A stretch of 64,000 nucleotides of DNA from positions 62,001 to 126,000 of the forward strand of contig JABMLG010000002.1 of assembly GCA_013204985.1 (NCBI GenBank), in the 5' to 3' direction. The notes below the pieces were generated by a model. That model worked only from the letters and a program-made list of their open reading frames with translations, was not told where the DNA came from and did not search any database. The DNA comes from Microbacteriaceae bacterium VKM Ac-2855. GTDB lineage: Bacteria > Actinomycetota > Actinomycetes > Actinomycetales > Microbacteriaceae. A program made the translations under genes and the position numbers. Position 1 is the first letter of the stretch. Each line of letters starts with the position of its first letter. Below are positions 54,389 through 64,000 of the stretch, in pieces.

Positions 54389-55501
54389 TCAGGCCATCAC
54401 GACCGGTGCCTCGTAGGTCGCCATCAGCGGCATCACCTTCTCGGCGAACCGACGCACATCCGTGGTGTAGTCGGCGAAGGTGAGCACAGCGCTGCCGACA
54501 CCGGCCTCGGTGTCGACGGCGTCGAGGTAGGCCGCGATGCGCTCGTACGAGCCGACGATGACGGGGGAGTACCAGCAGGAGCCCTGCAAGAACGCTGCGC
54601 GCTCGGGGTGCTCGAACACGATCTCGGGAACCGCTCCGCGCTGACGTTCCAACCCCACGCCTGCGGCGGTACCGGTGCGGTCGTTGCTCGCGGCAGCGAG
54701 GATCCCGGCTTGCGCGCCCAGATCGACGCCCTCCATGTAGAACCGGGCCTGCGCGATCGCTTCTTCGTCCGTCTCGGCCATGATCACGCCGATCAGCACG
54801 GCGCTCTCGCACTCCCGCCCTGTCAGCGCGAGCTGCTCCTCGAGCCCGCGGCGAGCAGCGGCGAGCTCGGGCAGCGGGCCGAGGATGAAGTTGACATCGG
54901 CACTCGCGGCGGCGGTCGCCAGGCTCGCTGTCGACTGGCCGGGTACGATGACGGTGATCGGGTGCGTGGGTGTCGGCTGCACGATGCAGTCGTCCAGTTG
55001 ATAGAACCGTCCGTCGTAGGTGAGTCGGCCGGTCGCCCAGAGACCGCGCATCACGTCGATGAACTCGGCGGTGCACGCGTAACGGTCGCGGTAGTAATCC
55101 TCCGACGGCCACATGCCCATCTGCTCGTACTCGTAGCGATTCCAACCGCCCACGATGTTCACCCCGAAGCGGCCGCCCGAGGCGTCGTCCAGCGTCGCCA
55201 CGGTGCGCGCGATCATGGCCGGATTCGCGGACGGCACGCCGACCGATGCCCAGAGCTTGATGGTGCTGGTCGCCTCGACCAGCGCGGCCATCACCGCGGT
55301 CGACTCCACGGCCCAGTTCCAGAAGTCCGTCTCGCCGCCGAAACCGCGATACTTCACCATCGACAAGGAGAAGTCGTAGCCGCACTCTTCGGCGGTCTGG
55401 GTGATCTGCTTCTGCAGCGCGTAGCCGGGCATGTACTGAGGCGAGTTCACCGAGTAGATGTAACCGTTGTTGGTGGTCGGGAGGAAGACGCCGCACTTCA
55501 T
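54389..55501 (-). CDS. RutA-like LLM flavin-dependent monooxygenase
   Basis: 370 residues, TIM-barrel luciferase-like monooxygenase. It follows E. coli RutA (pyrimidine monooxygenase) closely: GVFLPTTNNGYIYSVNSPQYMP at the N-terminus, DFSLSMVKYRGFGGETDFW, GGRFGVNIVGGWNRYEYEQMGMWP and VLTFADYTTDVRRFAEKVMPLM. RutA opens the uracil ring via a flavin-N5-peroxide. The residue after VNIV is Gly where RutA, as I recall, has Thr (VNLVTGW), so the substrate may differ. It is last in the operon, overlapping the GntR gene by 4 bases. No rutB/C/E/F genes are present. Confidence 0.88.
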   Translation of the reverse strand: MKCGVFLPTTNNGYIYSVNSPQYMPGYALQKQITQTAEECGYDFSLSMVKYRGFGGETDFWNWAVESTAVMAALVEATSTIKLWASVGVPSANPAMIARTVATLDDASGGRFGVNIVGGWNRYEYEQMGMWPSEDYYRDRYACTAEFIDVMRGLWATGRLTYDGRFYQLDDCIVQPTPTHPITVIVPGQSTASLATAAASADVNFILGPLPELAAARRGLEEQLALTGRECESAVLIGVIMAETDEEAIAQARFYMEGVDLGAQAGILAAASNDRTGTAAGVGLERQRGAVPEIVFEHPERAAFLQGSCWYSPVIVGSYERIAAYLDAVDTEAGVGSAVLTFADYTTDVRRFAEKVMPLMATYEAPVVMA

Positions 55502-56247
55502 GGTTGCTCCTGTGATGTCGGGGTGTCGCCGGGCATCCGGAAGGAGACCCGGTCGGCGCGGTAATGGTCGAACACGATCTGGATCGGGGTGCCGTCGGCG
55601 GCCACGAACACCTGGTGTCGCGTGAGTACGGGCGCACCGGCATCAATGTGGAGCAGATGACTGGTGGTCTCGTCCGCGATCGTCGAGCCGATCTCCGTCG
55701 CGGCGATGCGCAGTTCGTCCGTGGCGAACACCTGCCGCCCGACCTCCCGCATGGTGATCGGGCCGGCGAGGCCTCGAGAGGTGTACCGCCGCGAGAAGTA
55801 GGCGGTGCGTACGCCGATGACGAGTCCATCGTGCAGGAAGAGGTTCTCCATCATCCGCACCCGGCTCTCGTCGGTGGCGAGCAGCTGATGGATGAGGGGG
55901 AAGGTGTCGACCTCGCGCTGCGCGATGATGTCGAGCGAGAACCGCTCCGGCTCCCCATCGACCACATCCCGCACATCGAGGCTGATGCCGCGATACGCGG
56001 GGAACGTGCCCATCCGTGGCTTGCGGATCATCACGCCCTGTTCGGCGAGCGCCTGCAGCGCCCGTCGTACCGCGCTCCGGCTGGCGCTGAGGGAGGTCAC
56101 CAGGGTGTCCTCGGCGAGGGTCTCGTGCTCGGGGTAGATTCCGGCGCGGATCGACGCGTGCACCAGGTCGCGCACCCGGCGCGACGAGGTCTGCCGCCCG
56201 TGCGCGCTGCCGGGCACGGCCCGCGGATGCTCCTCCGGCGCTGACAT
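55498..56247 (-). CDS. GntR-family regulator with UTRA-type sensor
   Basis: 249 residues. A winged helix with SRRVRDLVHASIRAGIYPEHETL and LVTSLSASRSAVRRALQALAEQG (about 48–70), followed by a UTRA-like ligand domain containing VMENLFLHDGLVIGVRTAYFS-type sequence and a C-terminal HQVFVAADGTPIQIVFDHYRAD signature. It is embedded in the operon (TGATG overlap upstream, ATGA downstream), so it is probably an autoregulator controlling the whole unit in response to the substrate. Confidence 0.9.
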   Translation of the reverse strand: MSAPEEHPRAVPGSAHGRQTSSRRVRDLVHASIRAGIYPEHETLAEDTLVTSLSASRSAVRRALQALAEQGVMIRKPRMGTFPAYRGISLDVRDVVDGEPERFSLDIIAQREVDTFPLIHQLLATDESRVRMMENLFLHDGLVIGVRTAYFSRRYTSRGLAGPITMREVGRQVFATDELRIAATEIGSTIADETTSHLLHIDAGAPVLTRHQVFVAADGTPIQIVFDHYRADRVSFRMPGDTPTSQEQP

Positions 56248-57581
56248 CAGAACTCGAGCAGGTGCTCGCGCAGTGTCGATCCGGAGTAGCCGTCGCGGAT
56301 CAGACCGCGTCGGCGCAGGGCCGCAGCCAAACCGTCGGCGACCTCGGCCATGTTGCGTCGGGTGGTGGGCAGATAGAGCAGGAACCCGTCGCCGCCGACC
56401 TCCTCCATGATCTCGCCCATCTTCCCCGCGACGGTGTCGGGGCTGCCGACCAGGCCGAGGTCGGTGATCTGGTGCGCCGAGGCGACGACCTCGCGCAGGG
56501 TCTTGCCCTCCGAGTCCTGGAAGAGGTTCGCGATCGAACTCATCTCGCCGTTCTGTCGGGTCAGGTCGATGTCCGAGACCCGCAGATCGGGGTCGATCGC
56601 GCCGAAGTCGATGCGGCCGCCGGAGGTGTACGACATGTTCCAGAGGTTGTACTCGATCGCCGCGTCGCTCGAGCGGGCGAGCGCCATCGCGGCGGCCTTC
56701 GCCCGCGCCTCCTCATCGGTGTCGGCGATCACGGGCGTGACCAGGAAGAGGAACTTGACCTTCGACGGGTCGCGGCCCTGCATCCGAAGCCGGAGGTGCA
56801 TGTCTTCGCGGTACGCCTTCATGTCGTCGACGGTCTTGCACATCGACATCATCGTGTCGTCGACTTCTGCGGCGAAGGCGCGGCCGGCTGGAGAGCCGCC
56901 GGCCGAGGCGATCGGCACCACGCCCTGCGGGCCGGGGATGGTGTTGAGCGGGCCCCGCGAAGAGAAGTACTTTCCTCGGAAATCGATCGGATGCACGCGC
57001 GATGCATCCGCGTAGACGCCGTTCGCGAGATCCGCGAGCACCGCTTCCGGCTCCCACGACGTCTGGAGCGCCTTCACGATCTCGACCCACTCGGAGGCCA
57101 TCGCGTAGCGCTCGTCGTGCTCGAAGTGCTGCTCGTAGCCGTAATTCTGAGCGACGCGGTCGGTGACCGACGTGACGACGTTCATCGCGATCCGACCCTC
57201 GGTGAGGTGGTCGAGGGTCGTGAACAGACGCGCCGCCATGTACGGGTGGTACTGGATCACCGAAGCCGTCGCTGCGATGCCGATGTGCTTGGTCGCGCGG
57301 GTCATCAGCGGAATGAGCGGCATCGGGTCGTTCTTCGGCGCCATGAACCCGCGGCGTAGCGAGGTCTCGGCGGAACCGTTGTAGCTGTCCTCCACCATCG
57401 CGGTGTCCTCGATCAGGATGTAGTCGAAGCCCGCCCGCTCCATCGAGGTGGTGAGGTCGATGTAGATGTCGGGCTTCATCCAGTCGTGGGCGTTCGCGCC
57501 CACCCATGGGCCGTCGCCGTTGACCTGATCCCAGGCCTGGATGCCGAAGCCGTTCCCGAGGAACCAGCCGAGATGGAACAT
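56247..57581 (-). CDS. NtaA/DszA-family LLM flavin-dependent monooxygenase
   Basis: 444 residues. Signature blocks of the nitrilotriacetate/EDTA/dibenzothiophene-sulphone monooxygenase subgroup: LGWFLGNG at the N-terminus, FDYILIEDTAMV (about 52), EGRIAMNVVTSVTDRVAQNYG (about 125–145), EHDERYAMASEWVEIV, and the nucleotide-phosphate loop ASAGGSPAGRAFAA. It needs reduced FMN from a separate reductase, not found in the window. AGGAGAT precedes the ATG. The 86-nt gap upstream carries the tandem repeat at 57610. Confidence 0.9.
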   Translation of the reverse strand: MFHLGWFLGNGFGIQAWDQVNGDGPWVGANAHDWMKPDIYIDLTTSMERAGFDYILIEDTAMVEDSYNGSAETSLRRGFMAPKNDPMPLIPLMTRATKHIGIAATASVIQYHPYMAARLFTTLDHLTEGRIAMNVVTSVTDRVAQNYGYEQHFEHDERYAMASEWVEIVKALQTSWEPEAVLADLANGVYADASRVHPIDFRGKYFSSRGPLNTIPGPQGVVPIASAGGSPAGRAFAAEVDDTMMSMCKTVDDMKAYREDMHLRLRMQGRDPSKVKFLFLVTPVIADTDEEARAKAAAMALARSSDAAIEYNLWNMSYTSGGRIDFGAIDPDLRVSDIDLTRQNGEMSSIANLFQDSEGKTLREVVASAHQITDLGLVGSPDTVAGKMGEIMEEVGGDGFLLYLPTTRRNMAEVADGLAAALRRRGLIRDGYSGSTLREHLLEF

Positions 57582-57609
57582 AAGAGATCTCCTGTCGAAG
57601 AGTTGTCGA

Positions 57610-57659
57610 GAGAGGGCGTCAGCGCCGAGAGGGCGTCAGCGGGTAGGGCGTCAGCGAAG
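57610..57659. repeat. 17-bp tandem repeat, three copies, between two LLM genes
   Basis: GAGAGGGCGTCAGCGCC (57610), GAGAGGGCGTCAGCGGG (57627) and TAGGGCGTCAGCGAAG (57644). On the minus strand it begins 8 nt after the stop of the upstream LLM gene and ends before the ribosome-binding site of the next. Confidence 0.82.
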
Positions 57660-57667
57660 TCGGAACG

Positions 57668-58936
57668 TCATCGCAGTGCGAGGCGGTCGCGGAAGGTGCC
57701 CGGGGCGTAGTCGCGCTGCGCCAGCCCGCGACGCTGCAGCTCGGGCACGAGGCCGTCGAGCACCTCGTCGAGGTAGCGCCGTGTGATCAGGCCTCCACCA
57801 CCGTGGAAGAGCAGGAAACCGTCGCCGCCGACCTCGGCCATCGCTTCCTCCATGCGGTCCGCGACCGTGGCCGGCGTGCCGACCAGTTCGAGCGCGGTGG
57901 ACTCGCCGGTCGAGCCGAGGACGGCGCGCAGCGATGATCCGGCGGTCAGCCGCTTCATCGTGTCGAGGATGGACTGTGCACCGTTCGTCGTGGCATCCGC
58001 CGGAATCGGGGCATCGAGGTCGTACTGGGCGAAGTCGATCTCGGACACGTTCGAGAGCTGCACGATGCGGCGGAGGAAATTGTCGCCGGACGCCGCGTAC
58101 ATCCGCTGCTTCTTGGCGTGCGCCTCGGCGTCGGTCTCTCCGAGGATCGGCGTGATCATGTAGAGCACGCGGCAGCGATCCGGGTCGCCCCCTTCGGCTT
58201 CGATCCGCGAGCGGATCCCGGCCCGGTACGCCGTCATCGCGGGGATGCCGACGGGCGCAGAGACGATCAGGTCCGCCCAATCGGCCGCGAAGTCCATGCC
58301 GGCCTTCGACCCGCCGGCCTGGCAGAACACCGGGCGCTGCTGCGACGGCATCGGTACAGGCGGGGCGTCGACGCCGTAGAACTCGCCGGCCAGCTGTACT
58401 CGGGCATCCGCCGACCAGAGAGCCGAGACCGTTCGCAGGTACTCGTCGGCTCGGCGATAGCGTTCGTCGTGCTCCCAGAGCCGGTCGAGCCCGACCTGCT
58501 GCGCCGCGAGGTCCTCGAAGGACGTGACGATGTTCCAGCCCGCGCGGCCGTCCGTGAGTTCGGCGAGGGTCGATTGCAGCCGAGCGATCCGTTCGGGCGG
58601 ATACAGGCTTGTCGACATGGTCGTGACGACGCCGAGTCGTTCGGTTGCCTGCGAGATCGCGGCGGCGAGCGGGAGCGGATCGTGTTTGGGCGCCTTCACC
58701 GTGGCCATGAACTCGGCCACCATGTCGCCGCCGAAGTTCTCGGGCACCACGCTCGAATCCTCGAGCATGATGAAGTCGATACCGCTGCGTTCGAGCGCCC
58801 TCGCCATGTCGATGTAGAACTGGCCGTCGAGCCACTCGCGCGGGTCGGGCCCGGCCCACGGACGGTTCCACGCCGTCGGCATGTAGTTGACGAACCAGCC
58901 GAGCGTCATCCGGCCGGAGGGCGTGTGGGCCATCAT
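57668..58936 (-). CDS. NtaA/DszA-family LLM flavin-dependent monooxygenase
   Basis: 422 residues. LGWFVNYMPTAWNRPWAGPDPREW, then IDFIMLEDSSVVPENFGG, GRAGWNIVTSFEDLAAQQVGL, EHDERYRRADEY and FCQAGGSKAGMDFAA, the full set of NtaA-type blocks. The start at 58936 gives an ATGA overlap with the short homologue upstream; the next codon is also ATG. It is about one-third to 40 % identical by eye to the homologues at 56247 and 60641, so the three are related but diverged enough to have separate substrates or steps. Confidence 0.9.
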   Translation of the reverse strand: MMAHTPSGRMTLGWFVNYMPTAWNRPWAGPDPREWLDGQFYIDMARALERSGIDFIMLEDSSVVPENFGGDMVAEFMATVKAPKHDPLPLAAAISQATERLGVVTTMSTSLYPPERIARLQSTLAELTDGRAGWNIVTSFEDLAAQQVGLDRLWEHDERYRRADEYLRTVSALWSADARVQLAGEFYGVDAPPVPMPSQQRPVFCQAGGSKAGMDFAADWADLIVSAPVGIPAMTAYRAGIRSRIEAEGGDPDRCRVLYMITPILGETDAEAHAKKQRMYAASGDNFLRRIVQLSNVSEIDFAQYDLDAPIPADATTNGAQSILDTMKRLTAGSSLRAVLGSTGESTALELVGTPATVADRMEEAMAEVGGDGFLLFHGGGGLITRRYLDEVLDGLVPELQRRGLAQRDYAPGTFRDRLALR

Positions 58937-59829
58937 CGGGGGTCCCCTTCGAGGATCAGGTCGTCCAGCGTCGGTGCGAGCACGAAGGCGAACGACTCCT
59001 CGGGGAGGGCGAATCGCTCGCGGAGCAGCCCGGCGCGCGGTGCGGCTCCGTCGAGTAGCTCCGGGATGACGCCGTGCAGCACCGCGCCGTAGCGGGGGCC
59101 GCGCGAGATCCCGGCGAACGCGTAGCCGTCGCCTGCGGTCGGCGGTGGGGCGAGCACCGCGTCGCCGTCGAGGCGCAGCAGCACCCGGCTGCCGGCCGCG
59201 CGAGCGGCGTCCACCTCTGTCTCGGACGACACGATCAGCACATCCGCGCACTCGGTCACGGGCCCCTCGGCGAAACGCACGGGCCGGCCCTGCGGACCCC
59301 GCGGCGCGTTCAGCGGGCCGCGCGCGGCGTAGTACTCACCGCGGTAGTGCGGTACGTGGACCCGGTCGGCATCCACGTAGCGCCCGGAGGCGACGTCGGC
59401 GATCAAAGAGTCGGGCTCCCAAGAGTTCCAGAGGGCGGCGGTGGCCGCAAGGTAGTCGGCGAGGGCGTCGACCCGTTCTGCAGCGGATGCGCGGTGGGCG
59501 AACCAGCGGCCGGAATCGTCGCTGCCACCGCCGTCCAGGGGGCGCTCGTCGACGAACCATCCGGCCCGGCCGCTGCTGAGCGCGTCCAAGGTGTTGAGCG
59601 CGCGCGCCGTGTGGAACGGCGGTTGCGACCAGGGCGAGAGGGCGGGCACGAGGCCGATCCGTGGGGCGCGCCGGGTCGCCGCGGAGGCGAGCAGCAGCGC
59701 ATCCGCCGCACCATCGGCCTCGCCGGGCAGGATCACCGCGTCGACCCCGGCGGCGTCGAGTTCGGTGATCGTGGTCAGGGTGTCGCGAGCGGATGCGGGC
59801 TCCGCCAACCACACGATGAGCGGGATCAC
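58933..59829 (-). CDS. Shortened, degenerate LLM-family protein
   Basis: 298 residues against about 430 for neighbours. It keeps the barrel start (ELDAAGVDAVILPGEAD), LNTLDALSSGRAGWFVDE where others have NVVTS, the RYVDADRVHVPHYRGEYYAARGPLNAPRGPQGRPV block, and ADVLIVSS. It lacks the QAGGS-x-x-G loop and the C-terminal GTPxxVA...VGGDGFL region. Flavin binding is therefore doubtful. It overlaps both neighbours by 4 bases, so it is expressed with them and may be a structural partner subunit. Confidence 0.75.
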   Translation of the reverse strand: MIPLIVWLAEPASARDTLTTITELDAAGVDAVILPGEADGAADALLLASAATRRAPRIGLVPALSPWSQPPFHTARALNTLDALSSGRAGWFVDERPLDGGGSDDSGRWFAHRASAAERVDALADYLAATAALWNSWEPDSLIADVASGRYVDADRVHVPHYRGEYYAARGPLNAPRGPQGRPVRFAEGPVTECADVLIVSSETEVDAARAAGSRVLLRLDGDAVLAPPPTAGDGYAFAGISRGPRYGAVLHGVIPELLDGAAPRAGLLRERFALPEESFAFVLAPTLDDLILEGDPR

Positions 59830-60641
59830 GCGGCCTCACCGGCGATCGGATGGGCGGCGAGGAAATCCAGCAGCGGCGCGACGACTGCGGCCGGCTCCTG
59901 GTCGAGCACGTACGCGCCGGCGTCGAGCTCGACGGAGGTGATGCCGTCTCGGGCGGCGAGCGTGCTGGCCACGTACGGATACAGGACATCCGCGGTGCCG
60001 CAGATCAGCAACGCCGGCGCAGTGCTGCTCGCGAGAAGAGCGCGCACATCCGTGCGGAACACGGTCAGGTACGCCTCGTGCCACCGGCTGCCGGCGCGCA
60101 GCTTGTCGACGGTCTCGCGCTGGCGCAGCGCGAGCGACGGCGGGTAGGCGTTCGGGTCGCCGTCGATGTTCGCCACCTGCCACCAGGCGGTGGAGAGGTG
60201 CGCTCCGGAGTCGGCGAGCTGCATCCCGACCACACCGGCCTCCCAGCGGGCGCGCTCGGCGTCCGGCAGAACGGTGGCGCCGATCATGGTGAGGCTCGCG
60301 ATCCGCTCCGCGGCCCGCGCGGCCATCGCCACCGCGATCGAGGCACCCGTGTGGTGACCGAGCACGTGCATCGGGCCCTCGACCGCGGCGAGGAGGTCGT
60401 CCGCCCAATCGCCGAGGTCGTAGGGATCCTCCGGCGTGAACGACATCCCGAATCCCGGGGTGTCGACGGCGATCAGGGTGTATTTCGCGGATTCCGCGGC
60501 TAGGAACTCGGCGGCGAAGGCCTCGTACATCGCCGACGAGGCGGCGGTCTGGTGCAGCAGCAGCACCGTTTCGGGGCCGTGGCCCGCGCGGCGCAGGTGC
60601 ACCTGCCCGCGCGGGGTGTCCGCGTAGGAGCGACGCATCAT
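59826..60641 (-). CDS. Alpha/beta-hydrolase fold protein with atypical triad
   Basis: 271 residues. The fold is clear: LLLHQTAASSAMYEAF (oxyanion strand), VDTPGFGMS, and the nucleophile elbow at 92–100. However, the elbow reads LGHHTGAS, putting His97 where Ser, Cys or Asp is expected. The acid Asp218 is present in CGTADVLYP, but the usual terminal GxGH is AGAY (Tyr244). It may be non-hydrolytic, cofactor-free, or use another mechanism. In the Rut pathway the analogous protein RutD is also an alpha/beta-hydrolase. It overlaps the LLM genes on both sides. Confidence 0.85.
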   Translation of the reverse strand: MMRRSYADTPRGQVHLRRAGHGPETVLLLHQTAASSAMYEAFAAEFLAAESAKYTLIAVDTPGFGMSFTPEDPYDLGDWADDLLAAVEGPMHVLGHHTGASIAVAMAARAAERIASLTMIGATVLPDAERARWEAGVVGMQLADSGAHLSTAWWQVANIDGDPNAYPPSLALRQRETVDKLRAGSRWHEAYLTVFRTDVRALLASSTAPALLICGTADVLYPYVASTLAARDGITSVELDAGAYVLDQEPAAVVAPLLDFLAAHPIAGEAA

Positions 60642-61954
60642 CAGACGAACGAGCGCAGGTTCTCGCGCAGGGTGTCGTGCGCGTAGTCGGTGCGCAGCAG
60701 GCCGCGGCGCTGCAGCGCCGGTGCGACGCCGTCGGTCATCTCGGCGATCGACTGGCGCGAGATCGGCTGTCCGTAGATCAAGAAGCCGTCGCCGCCCACC
60801 TCCTGCATGAACTCGTCCATCTGCGCCGCGATGGCGTCGGGGGTGCCGACCATCTCGGTCGTCTGCACGCGCATGCCGCTGAAGCCCTCGCGGATCGTCT
60901 TACCGTTGAGCTGCTTGCGCCACTCGACGAGCTGGCTCTGGTGGCCGTTCGTGGTGAGATCGTCCGGGATGGGCGCGTCGAGGTCGAACTGCGACATGTC
61001 CAGCTCCATCGTCGCCGCCATGTGGGTCATCTGCACCTCGAAGTTGTGCTGCTTGCGGGCGTACCAGGCCTTGTTCTTCTCCTCCGCTTCGCGCTGGGTC
61101 TCGCCGACGATCGGGTAGACCACCGGGAACACCTTGAGATCGTCCGGGTTGCGGCCGAACTTCACGGCGCGCTCGCGCATATCGGCGCGGTACTTCTTGG
61201 CGCCCTCGACGCCGGCGGGGATCGTCAACACGATGTCGGAGTGCTCCGCCGCGAAATCCCGACCGCGGGGGGAGCCGCCGGCCTGGCAGATCACCGGCTG
61301 GCCGTGCGGCCCGGGCGGCAGGTTCAGCGGGCCGCGCGAGCGGAAGAACTCGCCGTCGTGGAAGATCGGCTTCACCTTGGTGTGGTCCGTGTAGTAGCCC
61401 GACTCGGGGTCGGCCAGGATCGCGCCGTCCTCCCACGATCCCCAGAGCTTCTTCGCGACGTCCATGAACTCCTCCGCCATGTCGTAGCGGCGGTCGTGCT
61501 CGGGCAGGTTGTCGAGGCCGAAGTTCTGCGCGGCGCGGTCCTCGGAAGACGTGACCACGTTCCAGCCGATGCGTCCGCCCGTGATGTGGTTCAGCGTCGC
61601 CATCTGCCGCGCCAGTTGGTACGGGTGGTAGAAGGTCGTCGACGCGGTGCAGACGATGCCGATCTTCTCGGTGACCGCGGCGAGCATCCCGGCGGCGGCG
61701 ATCGGGTCCATCTTGGGGGCGTAACGGGCGTGCTTCAGTTCGATCTCGGCGGTGCCCTGGTAGATGTCGCTGACCATGAGGGAGTCCTCGATCATCAGGA
61801 AATCGAAGCCGGCGCGCTCCATGTTGCGGATCATGTCCTGGTAGAAGCGCAGGTTGAAATAGTTGGTGGTCGCGTCGTTGCCGCTGTAGGGCGACTTCCA
61901 TTCGGGGGCGGCGAGGTTGCCGAACCAGCCGAGGCGGAACGGATCTGCAGACAT
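60641..61954 (-). CDS. NtaA/DszA-family LLM flavin-dependent monooxygenase
   Basis: 437 residues. FRLGWFGNLAAPEWKSPYSGND, FDFLMIEDSLMVSDIYQG, GGRIGWNVVTSSEDRAAQNFGL, EHDRRYDMAEEFMDV and ICQAGGSPRGRDFAA mark the same subgroup as 56247 and 57668, and the C-terminal GTPDAIAAQMDEFMQEVGGDGFLI is intact. It is the first enzyme gene after the transporter genes (59-nt gap) and overlaps the hydrolase start by one base. Confidence 0.9.
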   Translation of the reverse strand: MSADPFRLGWFGNLAAPEWKSPYSGNDATTNYFNLRFYQDMIRNMERAGFDFLMIEDSLMVSDIYQGTAEIELKHARYAPKMDPIAAAGMLAAVTEKIGIVCTASTTFYHPYQLARQMATLNHITGGRIGWNVVTSSEDRAAQNFGLDNLPEHDRRYDMAEEFMDVAKKLWGSWEDGAILADPESGYYTDHTKVKPIFHDGEFFRSRGPLNLPPGPHGQPVICQAGGSPRGRDFAAEHSDIVLTIPAGVEGAKKYRADMRERAVKFGRNPDDLKVFPVVYPIVGETQREAEEKNKAWYARKQHNFEVQMTHMAATMELDMSQFDLDAPIPDDLTTNGHQSQLVEWRKQLNGKTIREGFSGMRVQTTEMVGTPDAIAAQMDEFMQEVGGDGFLIYGQPISRQSIAEMTDGVAPALQRRGLLRTDYAHDTLRENLRSFV

Positions 61955-62013
61955 GGTGCTTCCTTACGTGTGGGGGAGGGATGCCGGTGCGTGCTGTCGC
62001 TTCCGCGACGGAG

Positions 62014-63561
62014 TCAGGCGGCGAAGGTCTCGACCTCGGCGGGCGAGGACTCGCACGCTTCGAGGAGGGCATGCTCGGTCAGCGCGTCGCCGGCGAGCTC
62101 GGCGATCAGGCTGCCGTGGTGCAGAACGAGCACGCGGTTGCACACGGCCGCGAGCATCTCGTGCTCGCCGGAGAAGACGACCACGGCGCTGCCGTCGGCC
62201 GCGGTCTTCGCGGCGGCGGCCAGCAACTCCTTCGCCGATCCCGGGTCGACGCCTTGGGTCGGTTCGTCCAGCAGCAGCACCCCCGGCTCCTTCTGCAGCC
62301 ATTTCGCGAAGACCACCTTCTGCTGATTGCCGCCCGAGAAGGCGGCCATCGGGTAGTCGGGGCGATTCGGATGCACGCGCACCTGAGCCATCAGCTCGGC
62401 CGCTCGCGCCCGTACGTCCTTCTGCCGCACACCGAAGAGTCCTGAGAAGCGTCCGAGCACAGGAAGGACCACGTTCTCCTCCGCGGTGCCGGCGATCCAG
62501 ATGCCGTCGCGGAGCCGGTTGCCCGGCACCAGGGCGACGCCCGCCGCGATCGCCGCGGCCGGCGTGCGCAGCGTGGTGGCGGAGCCGTCGATCGCCACCG
62601 TGCCGGCACGCGCCTTCTGCGCGCCCGACAGCAGGAACGGCAGCTCCTCCTGGCCCATCCCGGCAAGACCCGTCACTCCGACGACCTCGCCGGCGCGCAC
62701 GGCGAACGACACCTCGTCCACCCGCTCCCCGGTGATGCCGTCGACCGCGAGCCGAATCGGGCCGGGCACCCCCGACGGCGGGGCCGGGTAGAAGTCGTCG
62801 AGGCGGCGTCCGAGCATGTGCGCGACGAGATCGGCACGAGTCGTGTCGGCGATGGCGACCTCGACCACATCGCGGCCGGCGCGCATCACGGTGGCCCGGT
62901 CGCAGACCTCCATCACTTCGGCGAGGCGGTGACTGATGAACACGACGGCCGAACCACGGTCGGCGACCGTGCGCATCAACGCCAGCAGTCGCGCGGCCTC
63001 GGGGCGCGAAAGCGCGGCGGTCGGCTCGTCCAGGATGAACAGCTGCGAGTCGGTCTCACCCTCCATCAACCGCAGCGCGCGGACGACGGCGAGCAGGGCC
63101 CGTTCGGCGGGGCTGAGGGTCGAGACGAGCGCGTCGAGCGGGAACTGGAAGCCGAGCCCGTGCATCAACTCGGTGTAGATCGCCCGCTCCTGCTTCACAT
63201 CGACGGGGGCGAGCAGACGCGCGCCGTAGCGGGCGTTCGCACCGAGGTTCTCGAGCACCGTCATGTCCTCGACGAGGCCGATGTCTTGGTGGATCACCGC
63301 GATGCCCCGGGTGTGCGGGTCGCTGAGAGGCATCTCGAGTGCGGATCCGTAGACCTCGACGCTGCCGCTGTCGGGCGTGATCACCCCGGTGAGCGACTTG
63401 ACCAGGGTCGACTTGCCGCAGCCGTTCTGCCCGAGCAGGGCGTGCACCTCACCGGCGCGAACGGTGAGGCTCGTGTCGTCGAGGGCGATCGCGCCGCCGT
63501 AGGTTTTGCGCAGGTTCGCCACGTGCAAGGCGATGCGCGGCTGGGCGGGCGGGGTGCTCAT
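62014..63561 (-). CDS. Ribose-type ABC importer ATPase (two ABC domains)
   Basis: 515 residues, RbsA/MglA architecture. Domain 1: Walker A GQNGCGKSTL (about 44), Walker B LFILDEPTAAL (about 172), with a poor signature LSPAERALLAVVRAL. Domain 2 (from about 260): the degenerate Walker A GLAGMGQEEL usual in this class, signature FSGGNQQKVVFAKWL, Walker B LLLDEPTQGVD. Such CUT2 systems import ribose, nucleosides, autoinducer-2 and other small sugars or polar compounds. It overlaps the permease stop (ATGA). Confidence 0.93.
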   Translation of the reverse strand: MSTPPAQPRIALHVANLRKTYGGAIALDDTSLTVRAGEVHALLGQNGCGKSTLVKSLTGVITPDSGSVEVYGSALEMPLSDPHTRGIAVIHQDIGLVEDMTVLENLGANARYGARLLAPVDVKQERAIYTELMHGLGFQFPLDALVSTLSPAERALLAVVRALRLMEGETDSQLFILDEPTAALSRPEAARLLALMRTVADRGSAVVFISHRLAEVMEVCDRATVMRAGRDVVEVAIADTTRADLVAHMLGRRLDDFYPAPPSGVPGPIRLAVDGITGERVDEVSFAVRAGEVVGVTGLAGMGQEELPFLLSGAQKARAGTVAIDGSATTLRTPAAAIAAGVALVPGNRLRDGIWIAGTAEENVVLPVLGRFSGLFGVRQKDVRARAAELMAQVRVHPNRPDYPMAAFSGGNQQKVVFAKWLQKEPGVLLLDEPTQGVDPGSAKELLAAAAKTAADGSAVVVFSGEHEMLAAVCNRVLVLHHGSLIAELAGDALTEHALLEACESSPAEVETFAA

Positions 63562-64000
63562 ACGCTTCCTCCGGCGCGACGGCGGCCGGCGATCTTCGCG
63601 GCGGTGACCGAGATCATCAGGGCCAGGCCGTAGAAGAGGTTCGTCACCCAGGTCTCGGCGCCGAGAAGCTGCAGGGCCGTGATACCCACCGTGAGCAGGT
63701 AGAGCGCGGTGATCGTGCCCCAGGCGTTGAAGCGCCCGACGGTGATGGCCGTGGCGCCGAGGAAGGCGGCGGCGAAGGGCTGCAGCATGTACTGTCCGCC
63801 GACGGAGGGGTCGACCGCTCCGAAGTACCCGACGAAGCAGACTCCGACGAACGACGCGAGCAGGCCCGAAACCACGTAGGCGCCGGTGCGGATGGGGTTC
63901 ACGGCGATGCCGGCCAGGCGTGCGGCGTTGCGGTTGCCGCCGATGAAGACCGTATAGCGGCCCAGCGGCGTGCGCTGGTAGACGTACCAGAGCACCACGA
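63558..64000 (-). CDS. Ribose-type ABC permease, C-terminal part
   Basis: The frame is open to the right edge, so the N-terminus is outside the window. The visible 147 residues carry the RbsC-family block YTVFIGGNRNAARLAGIAVNPIRTGAYVVSG and about four transmembrane helices, including FLGATAITVGRFNAWGT. It pairs with the two-domain ATPase. A second permease, a binding protein and a flavin reductase could lie further right. Confidence 0.88.
   Translation of the reverse strand, partial: VVLWYVYQRTPLGRYTVFIGGNRNAARLAGIAVNPIRTGAYVVSGLLASFVGVCFVGYFGAVDPSVGGQYMLQPFAAAFLGATAITVGRFNAWGTITALYLLTVGITALQLLGAETWVTNLFYGLALMISVTAAKIAGRRRAGGSV

Follow-up and report, generated by a model that had tools for sequence, protein, structure and literature searches.

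An importer-linked operon of Microbacteriaceae bacterium VKM Ac-2855 with several luciferase-like monooxygenases, a probable split enzyme and a triad-less alpha/beta-hydrolase

We analysed a stretch of 64,000 nucleotides (the window) from Microbacteriaceae bacterium VKM Ac-2855 (contig JABMLG010000002.1, positions 62,001 to 126,000; C12:62001-126000 of the source genome, G000, which has 4,707,732 bases in 26 contigs). A sequence-only reading had placed at its right end nine minus-strand genes with mostly overlapping ends, running from position 54389 to beyond the edge, and had assigned to them a ribose-type ATP-binding cassette (ABC) importer, five homologues of luciferase-like monooxygenases (LLMs), an alpha/beta-hydrolase and a GntR regulator. 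All nine open reading frames (ORFs) were found where that reading put them, and Pfam and NCBIfam searches returned the same families, gene order and importer (Table 1). The gene ends overlap by 1 or 4 bases at six of the eight junctions in the window; according to the ORF coordinates the remaining two are gaps of 86 and 59 bases. Beyond the right edge (L031) lie the rest of the permease gene, a gene for the binding protein and a gene for a second regulator, GntR2, after which come the plus-strand genes ask and asd. The left end of the operon adjoins recR and dnaX, both on the plus strand, and the whole set comprises 11 genes between recR and ask (we take these four flanking genes to be recR, dnaX, ask and asd from inspection of their translations). 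The binding protein gene is separated from the permease gene by 98 bases and from gntR2 by about 290 bases, and because of the latter gap GntR2 may belong to its own transcription unit.

Table 1. Genes of the importer-linked operon. L031 denotes the source genome beyond the right edge of the window.
Product	Position	Strand	Supporting match or residues
ABC permease, ribose/CUT2 type	63558..64000, cut by the window edge; full gene L031:3559-4581, 340 aa	minus	Pfam BPD_transp_2, 116 bits for the full gene
ABC ATPase, two nucleotide-binding domains, ribose/CUT2 type, 515 aa	62014..63561	minus	Pfam ABC_tran, 2 stretches
LLM_A, full NtaA/DmoA-type FMN monooxygenase, 437 aa	60641..61954	minus	TIGR03860, 440.1 bits
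Alpha/beta-hydrolase, GHHTG group, 271 aa	59826..60641	minus	Pfam Abhydrolase; His97, Ala243, Asp218
Short LLM, probable non-catalytic subunit (NtfO1-like), 298 aa	58933..59829	minus	TIGR03860, 113 bits; lidless, pocket residues lost
LLM_B, probable catalytic subunit (NtfO2-like), 422 aa	57668..58936	minus	TIGR03860, 297.0 bits; best PDB match 7e36_B
LLM_C, full NtaA/DmoA-type FMN monooxygenase, 444 aa	56247..57581	minus	TIGR03860, 349.8 bits
GntR1, GntR-family regulator with UTRA domain, 249 aa	55498..56247	minus	Pfam GntR, 42 bits; UTRA, 34.9 bits
RutA-like LLM monooxygenase, 370 aa, last gene of the operon	54389..55501	minus	TIGR03612, 327.3 bits
Binding protein, ribose type, outside the window	L031:4680-5816 (window-equivalent 64679-65815)		Peripla_BP_4, 76.8 bits for the VKM Ac-2854 ortholog
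GntR2, second GntR-UTRA regulator, outside the window	L031:6108-6845 (window-equivalent 66107-66844)		Pfam GntR plus UTRA

The grouping of these genes is conserved. We scanned a genome collection of 84,980 species with six exact peptide patterns from the hydrolase, a procedure that detects close relatives only, and obtained four loci (L072, L073, L074 and L075). Two of them show that the gene order recurs in other actinobacteria, where the sequence-only reading had suggested looking for it. In strain VKM Ac-2854 (L072) the complete set of 11 genes occupies the same position, flanked by recR and ask, and an 11.8 kb contig of a Cryobacterium metagenome-assembled genome (L073) carries eight in the same order, namely binding protein, permease, ATPase, LLM_A, hydrolase, short LLM, LLM_B and LLM_C. 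The GntR gene that follows LLM_C in the latter matches GntR2 at 52.3% and GntR1 at 31.7%, and is thus not an ortholog of GntR1. The other two loci are from Pseudomonas, and the hydrolase stands there in a different gene setting. Among 15 genomes of the genus the operon was present in two, the source genome and VKM Ac-2854 (G743). In all 13 remaining genomes recR and ask are neighbours, separated by 106-121 bases in 10, by 219 bases in one, and by 934 and 816 bases in two (L097 and L100, respectively). Myosotis is given as the source of VKM Ac-2855 and likewise of VKM Ac-2854 (PMC7498432).

In the comparison with VKM Ac-2854 the ratio of nonsynonymous to synonymous substitution rates (dN/dS) was 0.03-0.18 for all 11 genes (0.15 for the short LLM and 0.18 for the hydrolase). 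The corresponding values against the Cryobacterium locus (0.21-0.46, and 0.73 for GntR1 against the non-orthologous GntR) were set aside, as the synonymous distances were high (0.59-1.11). Synonymous distances to VKM Ac-2854 were 0.25-0.63 for the operon genes, 0.38 for recR and 0.27 for ask. Since the distances of the operon genes resemble those of the flanking genes, the operon was most likely already present in the lineage when VKM Ac-2855 and VKM Ac-2854 diverged. The recurrence of 11 genes in one strain and of eight in order in another genus, together with the low dN/dS values, demonstrates that the operon is real and more than a chance grouping. The G+C content of the operon part of the window is 0.689, compared with 0.696 for the rest.

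Scans for promoters and terminators gave nothing exceeding shuffled sequences. A block, GCGCAATA...TTAA...GATA, upstream of the binding protein gene is common to the three genomes and is too weak to be named as an operator. In VKM Ac-2854 the stretch that separates gntR2 from the binding protein gene also contains a perfect inverted repeat of 22 bases whose end is rich in T (L072:4429-4479); a 15-base piece of it occurs in two of 115 fetched loci (L072 and L078), both from one genome.

The importer has the three components of a CUT2 (ribose-type) system: a Peripla_BP_4 binding protein, a BPD_transp_2 permease and a tandem ATPase. The best NCBIfam models for the ATPase were AraG, XylG, YtfR and RbsA, and each of the 25 models listed scored below its cut-off. 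The binding protein from VKM Ac-2854 matched one distinct PDB sequence at E ≤ 1e-5 (4yv7, 9.8e-9).

Three of the LLMs are full-length members of the NtaA/DmoA family, as LLM_A, LLM_B and LLM_C all pass the curated cut-off of TIGR03860 (279.7 bits). They are 39-44% identical to each other and 23-27% identical to the RutA-like LLM. The closest solved structures to LLM_A were YtnJ/CmoJ (E 4.7e-80) and LadA, and the Thr, Asn, His and Tyr of the pocket for flavin mononucleotide (FMN) and oxygen are present; LLM_C was closest to DmoA (E 9.3e-65) and DszA, again with the pocket residues kept. Family score and pocket residues are thus shared with the characterised enzymes of the NtaA/DmoA/DszA type (CmoJ, DmoA, DszA, HcbA1, RcaE and EmoA), none of which is near enough to LLM_A, LLM_B or LLM_C for a substrate to be assigned. 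Riboflavin catabolism, considered on account of the LLM riboflavin lyase RcaE, was dropped, RcaE being a weaker match than YtnJ, NtfO2 and DmoA for LLM_A, LLM_B and LLM_C, respectively.

The short LLM scored below the same cut-off, and we regarded it as a derived subunit instead of a family monooxygenase. The columns of an alignment that correspond to the lid were 14% occupied in the short LLM and those of the side loop 100%, and at the pocket positions T/N/H/Y it carries A/F/A/V. LLM_B shows the reverse, with the side loop 20% and the lid 100% occupied, and retains T, N, H and Y. The start codon of LLM_B overlaps the stop codon of the short LLM gene. The best PDB match to LLM_B by sequence was 7e36_B (NtfO2; E 4.7e-53), and the top Foldseek PDB match to the predicted model of the short LLM was 7e36_A (NtfO1; E 1.2e-19, 30% identity), which was the second PDB match by sequence. 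The same complementary loss of lid and side loop in adjacent genes was found in VKM Ac-2854 and in the Cryobacterium genome.

A heterodimer of this architecture has been described, in which NtfO2 carries a lid but no side loop and NtfO1 a side loop but no lid (PMC8027225; PDB 7E36). In the same paper neither NgnO1 nor NgnO2 was active by itself, and the NtfO2 substitutions T101A, T133A and H151A nearly abolished activity. These three residues are kept in the alignment in LLM_B and not in the short LLM. Because the losses in the two chains are complementary, as in NtfO1-NtfO2, the short LLM most likely pairs with LLM_B as an NtfO1-NtfO2-like heterodimer. It would then be a structural subunit and not a fifth enzyme, and the operon probably encodes four flavin monooxygenase activities, one of them heterodimeric. 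Thus the five LLMs counted by the sequence-only reading stand as homologues, but as enzymes they probably amount to four, the short LLM having no FMN/oxygen-pocket residues. As in the pairs NtfO1-NtfO2, StmO1-StmO2 and NgnO1-NgnO2, a short lidless chain with a side loop stands next to a long lidded chain without one; in our operon the FMN-site residues, as defined in NtfO2, are confined to the long chain. Unlike those pairs, which are found in a macrolide cluster, this one stands next to importer genes and three other LLM genes in a single operon, and its complex is predicted from sequence and single-chain models. A pseudogene was rejected as an explanation of the short LLM, as the frame is open in three genomes and dN/dS against VKM Ac-2854 is 0.15. 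Matches to the short LLM at E ≤ 1e-10 were found in 244 of 349 family genomes, own genome included, and the foreign ones among the matches listed were all partial, with identities of ≤44%.

We scored lid and side loop in 35 proteins: 23 NtaA-type proteins of the source genome, eight from the VKM Ac-2854 and Cryobacterium loci, and four of the source genome (L001, L003, L006 and the RutA-like protein in L029) that were set aside as not NtaA-type, with side-loop columns at 0.16-0.20 and lid columns at 0.47-0.73. The scoring took in the part of the genome's PF00296 genes that lies in fetched loci. Among the 23, side loop and lid were both present in 19, two were lidless and two had a depleted side loop; each lidless gene directly overlaps a loop-poor gene. 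Shuffling of the labels, which were defined post hoc after the pattern had been seen, reproduced the pairing in 681 of 200000 trials. The second pair (G000:C4:29516-31540; L034:9289-11540) shows similar complementary losses and lies among NtaA-type LLMs beside what appear by eye to be oligopeptide-type ABC genes. A search for its short chain at E ≤ 1e-35 gave a 70% identical match in one other genome of the genus (G116) and nothing in the remaining 197 genomes, and the short subunits of the two pairs are 31% identical over 156 residues. Elsewhere in the genome, an NtaA-type LLM with both side loop and lid (G000:C1:794989-796119; L039:16816-18228) carries Ala and Phe at the positions of the FMN-phosphate His and Tyr.

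The last gene of the operon encodes an LLM whose best PDB match was RutA (E 8.5e-80) and whose score stays under the cut-off of the RutA equivalog model TIGR03612 (498.3 bits). Identity to plasmid-borne rutA genes was about 41% among the best 20 of 65 records. The oxygen pocket of RutA has been reported to include Leu65, Thr105, Asn134 and Val136 (PMC10005588, PMC7662398). With a numbering offset of 19 inferred from the PDB alignment, the RutA-like LLM has L, S, N and V at these positions, the change of T to S being conservative, and W at the position of Trp139. Because of these residues, flavin-N5 chemistry is plausible for this enzyme. As in the Rut pathway of Escherichia coli, a RutA-like LLM and an alpha/beta-hydrolase without the usual triad are encoded in one operon; in PMC7034887 the RutD paper is cited among alpha/beta-hydrolase-fold enzymes with non-canonical triads. 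In contrast to the rutA-rutG set, none of the isochorismatase-like, Rid, nitroreductase, flavin reductase or uracil permease families, that is no RutB-, RutC-, RutE-, RutF- or RutG-type family, was detected among the 11 genes (the binding protein being tested as its VKM Ac-2854 ortholog), and our operon adds an ABC importer, three further LLM genes and the short LLM.

The hydrolase had been described as lacking the usual triad, and this was confirmed: there is no Ser, Cys or Asp nucleophile and no catalytic His. Profile alignments to PDB chains placed His97, in the elbow G-H-H-T-G, at the position of the nucleophile and Ala243 at that of the catalytic His, with Asp218 kept. In an alignment of eight hydrolases (the window, L072, L073, L074, L075, L112, L087 and L113), His97, Thr98, Gly99 and Asp218 were invariant and the catalytic His was present in none, its position being held by A, I or N; the elbow was GHHTG in seven and GNHTG in L113. 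The predicted model had a mean pLDDT of 76, with residues 148-185 under 50, and its best 50 Foldseek matches included ordinary alpha/beta-hydrolases, so that the fold, as predicted, is that of an ordinary alpha/beta-hydrolase.

Few relatives of this hydrolase were found. They occur in two of 396 genomes of the phylum (E ≤ 1e-45, own genome included) and in three of 229 genomes of the class to which the Pseudomonas locus L074 belongs (E ≤ 1e-35, its own genome included). A search of 249 family genomes at E ≤ 1e-25, with the source genome among them and VKM Ac-2854 not sampled, returned the source genome only, and there the hydrolase had a single match. No match was found in plasmids at E ≤ 1e-20, and none in viral contigs by pattern search. 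Within about 9 kb, the relative in L112 is accompanied by HyuA, HyuB, a SnoaL-like protein and an FAD-binding oxidase. The one in L075 is accompanied by an Asp/Glu/hydantoin racemase, an NADH:flavin oxidoreductase (a second one is similar by eye), a methyltransferase, an FMN reductase and a RutA-like LLM that is 42% identical to that of the window. In L113 the large subunit of a molybdenum hydroxylase is encoded on the opposite strand at a distance of about 1.5 kb, and an amidase at a distance of some 8 kb, and in L087 two LLMs and an M20 enzyme are found past genes that by eye are of a branched-chain ABC type. The two Pseudomonas loci have a cluster of NADH:flavin oxidoreductases, an FAD oxidase (by eye), the GHHTG hydrolase, a methyltransferase, an FMN reductase and a RutA-like LLM, the families having been tested in L075 only.

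Taken together, these observations are best accommodated by an inducible uptake-and-catabolism operon for one polar compound, most likely a nitrogen heterocycle, with four flavin monooxygenase activities including one heterodimer and a His-elbow enzyme; we give this a probability of about 0.55. The CUT2-type importer would take up one polar organic compound, and the two GntR-UTRA regulators may sense it or a product of it. FMNH2 from reductases encoded elsewhere would supply the four activities, namely LLM_A, LLM_C, the RutA-like LLM and the heterodimer, in which LLM_B would be the catalytic chain and the short LLM a structural chain lacking an FMN site. These would oxidise and open the compound stepwise, and the His-elbow enzyme of alpha/beta fold would act on a ring-opened product. 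Gene order, gene families, conservation, selection and the pattern of lost and kept active-site parts are observed here. We infer the import itself and each later step, including the stepwise oxidation of one imported compound, from the gene families; heterodimer formation, regulation, step order and substrate class are likewise inferred. Of the two genes that the sequence-only reading had suggested looking for to the right of the window, the binding protein was found, and no flavin reductase is among the 11 genes.

The surroundings of the hydrolase in other genomes narrowed the N- or S-containing compound of the sequence-only reading weakly to N. A nitrogen heterocycle is weakly favoured mainly because the hydrolase relatives adjoin hydantoinase, hydantoin-racemase-family, molybdenum-hydroxylase or LLM genes, and the four settings are a small number. 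Among the listings of topical searches in open-licence PubMed Central papers (subscription papers were outside the scope) there was no named pathway with this gene set, in line with the earlier statement that no described pathway of this composition was known, and no pyrrolizidine-alkaloid degradation operon of this kind. Rather improbable, in our estimate, is a more specific version, an undescribed aerobic pathway for a plant N heterocycle in which the four flavin monooxygenase activities, with a split NtfO-type heterodimer, work in series and are followed by a His-elbow lyase or decarboxylase, not a hydrolase. Both carrier strains come from Myosotis, and Boraginaceae make pyrrolizidine alkaloids, so that under this version one candidate substrate would be a pyrrolizidine alkaloid or the N-oxide of one.

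The similarity of LLM_A to YtnJ/CmoJ and of LLM_C to DmoA and DszA among solved structures would also suit scavenging of organosulfur, in which a thioether, sulfone or sulfonate is imported and the LLMs cut its C-S bonds one after another, so that growth is supplied with sulphite or sulphide; the related enzymes DszA and MsuD have been described as acting on C-S bonds. We regard this as unlikely, as the 11 genes include no sulphur-pathway family, the importer belongs to the ribose type, and a RutA-type enzyme is present, the reported RutA reaction being ring amide cleavage. The hydantoin-type and molybdenum-hydroxylase genes near the hydrolase relatives argue in the same direction.

The LLMs might instead act side by side, each on a different one of several related compounds taken up by a common importer, without forming one pathway, like the other LLM clusters of this genome. 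With 44 PF00296 matches in 4.7 Mb (two rows share one frame), no fewer than four more places where, as judged by eye, LLM genes cluster next to ABC genes (C4:26-34 kb, C12:207-227 kb, C25:96 kb and C25:118-131 kb), and identities among LLM_A, LLM_B and LLM_C such as paralogues with related but different substrates might have, such broad scavenging has something to commend it. However, the order of eight genes is kept across two genera, and the hydrolase and the split enzyme stand between LLM genes with overlapping ends, which better fits a fixed sequence of steps; we therefore consider it improbable, and a little more so than organosulfur scavenging. That the only solved relative of the split pair found here is an antibiotic biosynthesis enzyme (PMC8027225) raises the thought of a tailoring or detoxification cluster, in which the NtfO-like pair would modify a natural product or antibiotic and not a nutrient. 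This is very unlikely, given that neither the operon nor, on inspection by eye, the called genes around it include a biosynthetic core enzyme, and that an importer with a binding protein and UTRA regulators suits uptake.

Two PF01613 flavin reductases were found in the genome, both on contigs other than that of the operon. Because 44 luciferase-like matches stand against these two (PF01613 alone was searched), the reductases are probably shared among the LLM enzymes. The multi-LLM operon is a recurring theme of this organism. The C4:26-34 kb cluster, for example, likewise has several NtaA-type LLMs, importer genes and a GntR-like regulator (both by eye) and the second short/long pair; unlike our operon, its importer is of another class (oligopeptide-type ABC, by eye) and it has no GHHTG-like hydrolase. 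What is distinctive here is that a ribose-type importer, a split enzyme and a triad-less hydrolase are joined in one conserved unit. The GHHTG group stands out as a place to look for new alpha/beta-hydrolase chemistry. If our interpretation as an uptake-and-catabolism operon is right, the operon would be a small system, open to testing, for the dismantling of a single compound by several flavin monooxygenases, one of them split, and the NtfO-type heterodimer would reach from antibiotic synthesis to probable catabolism.

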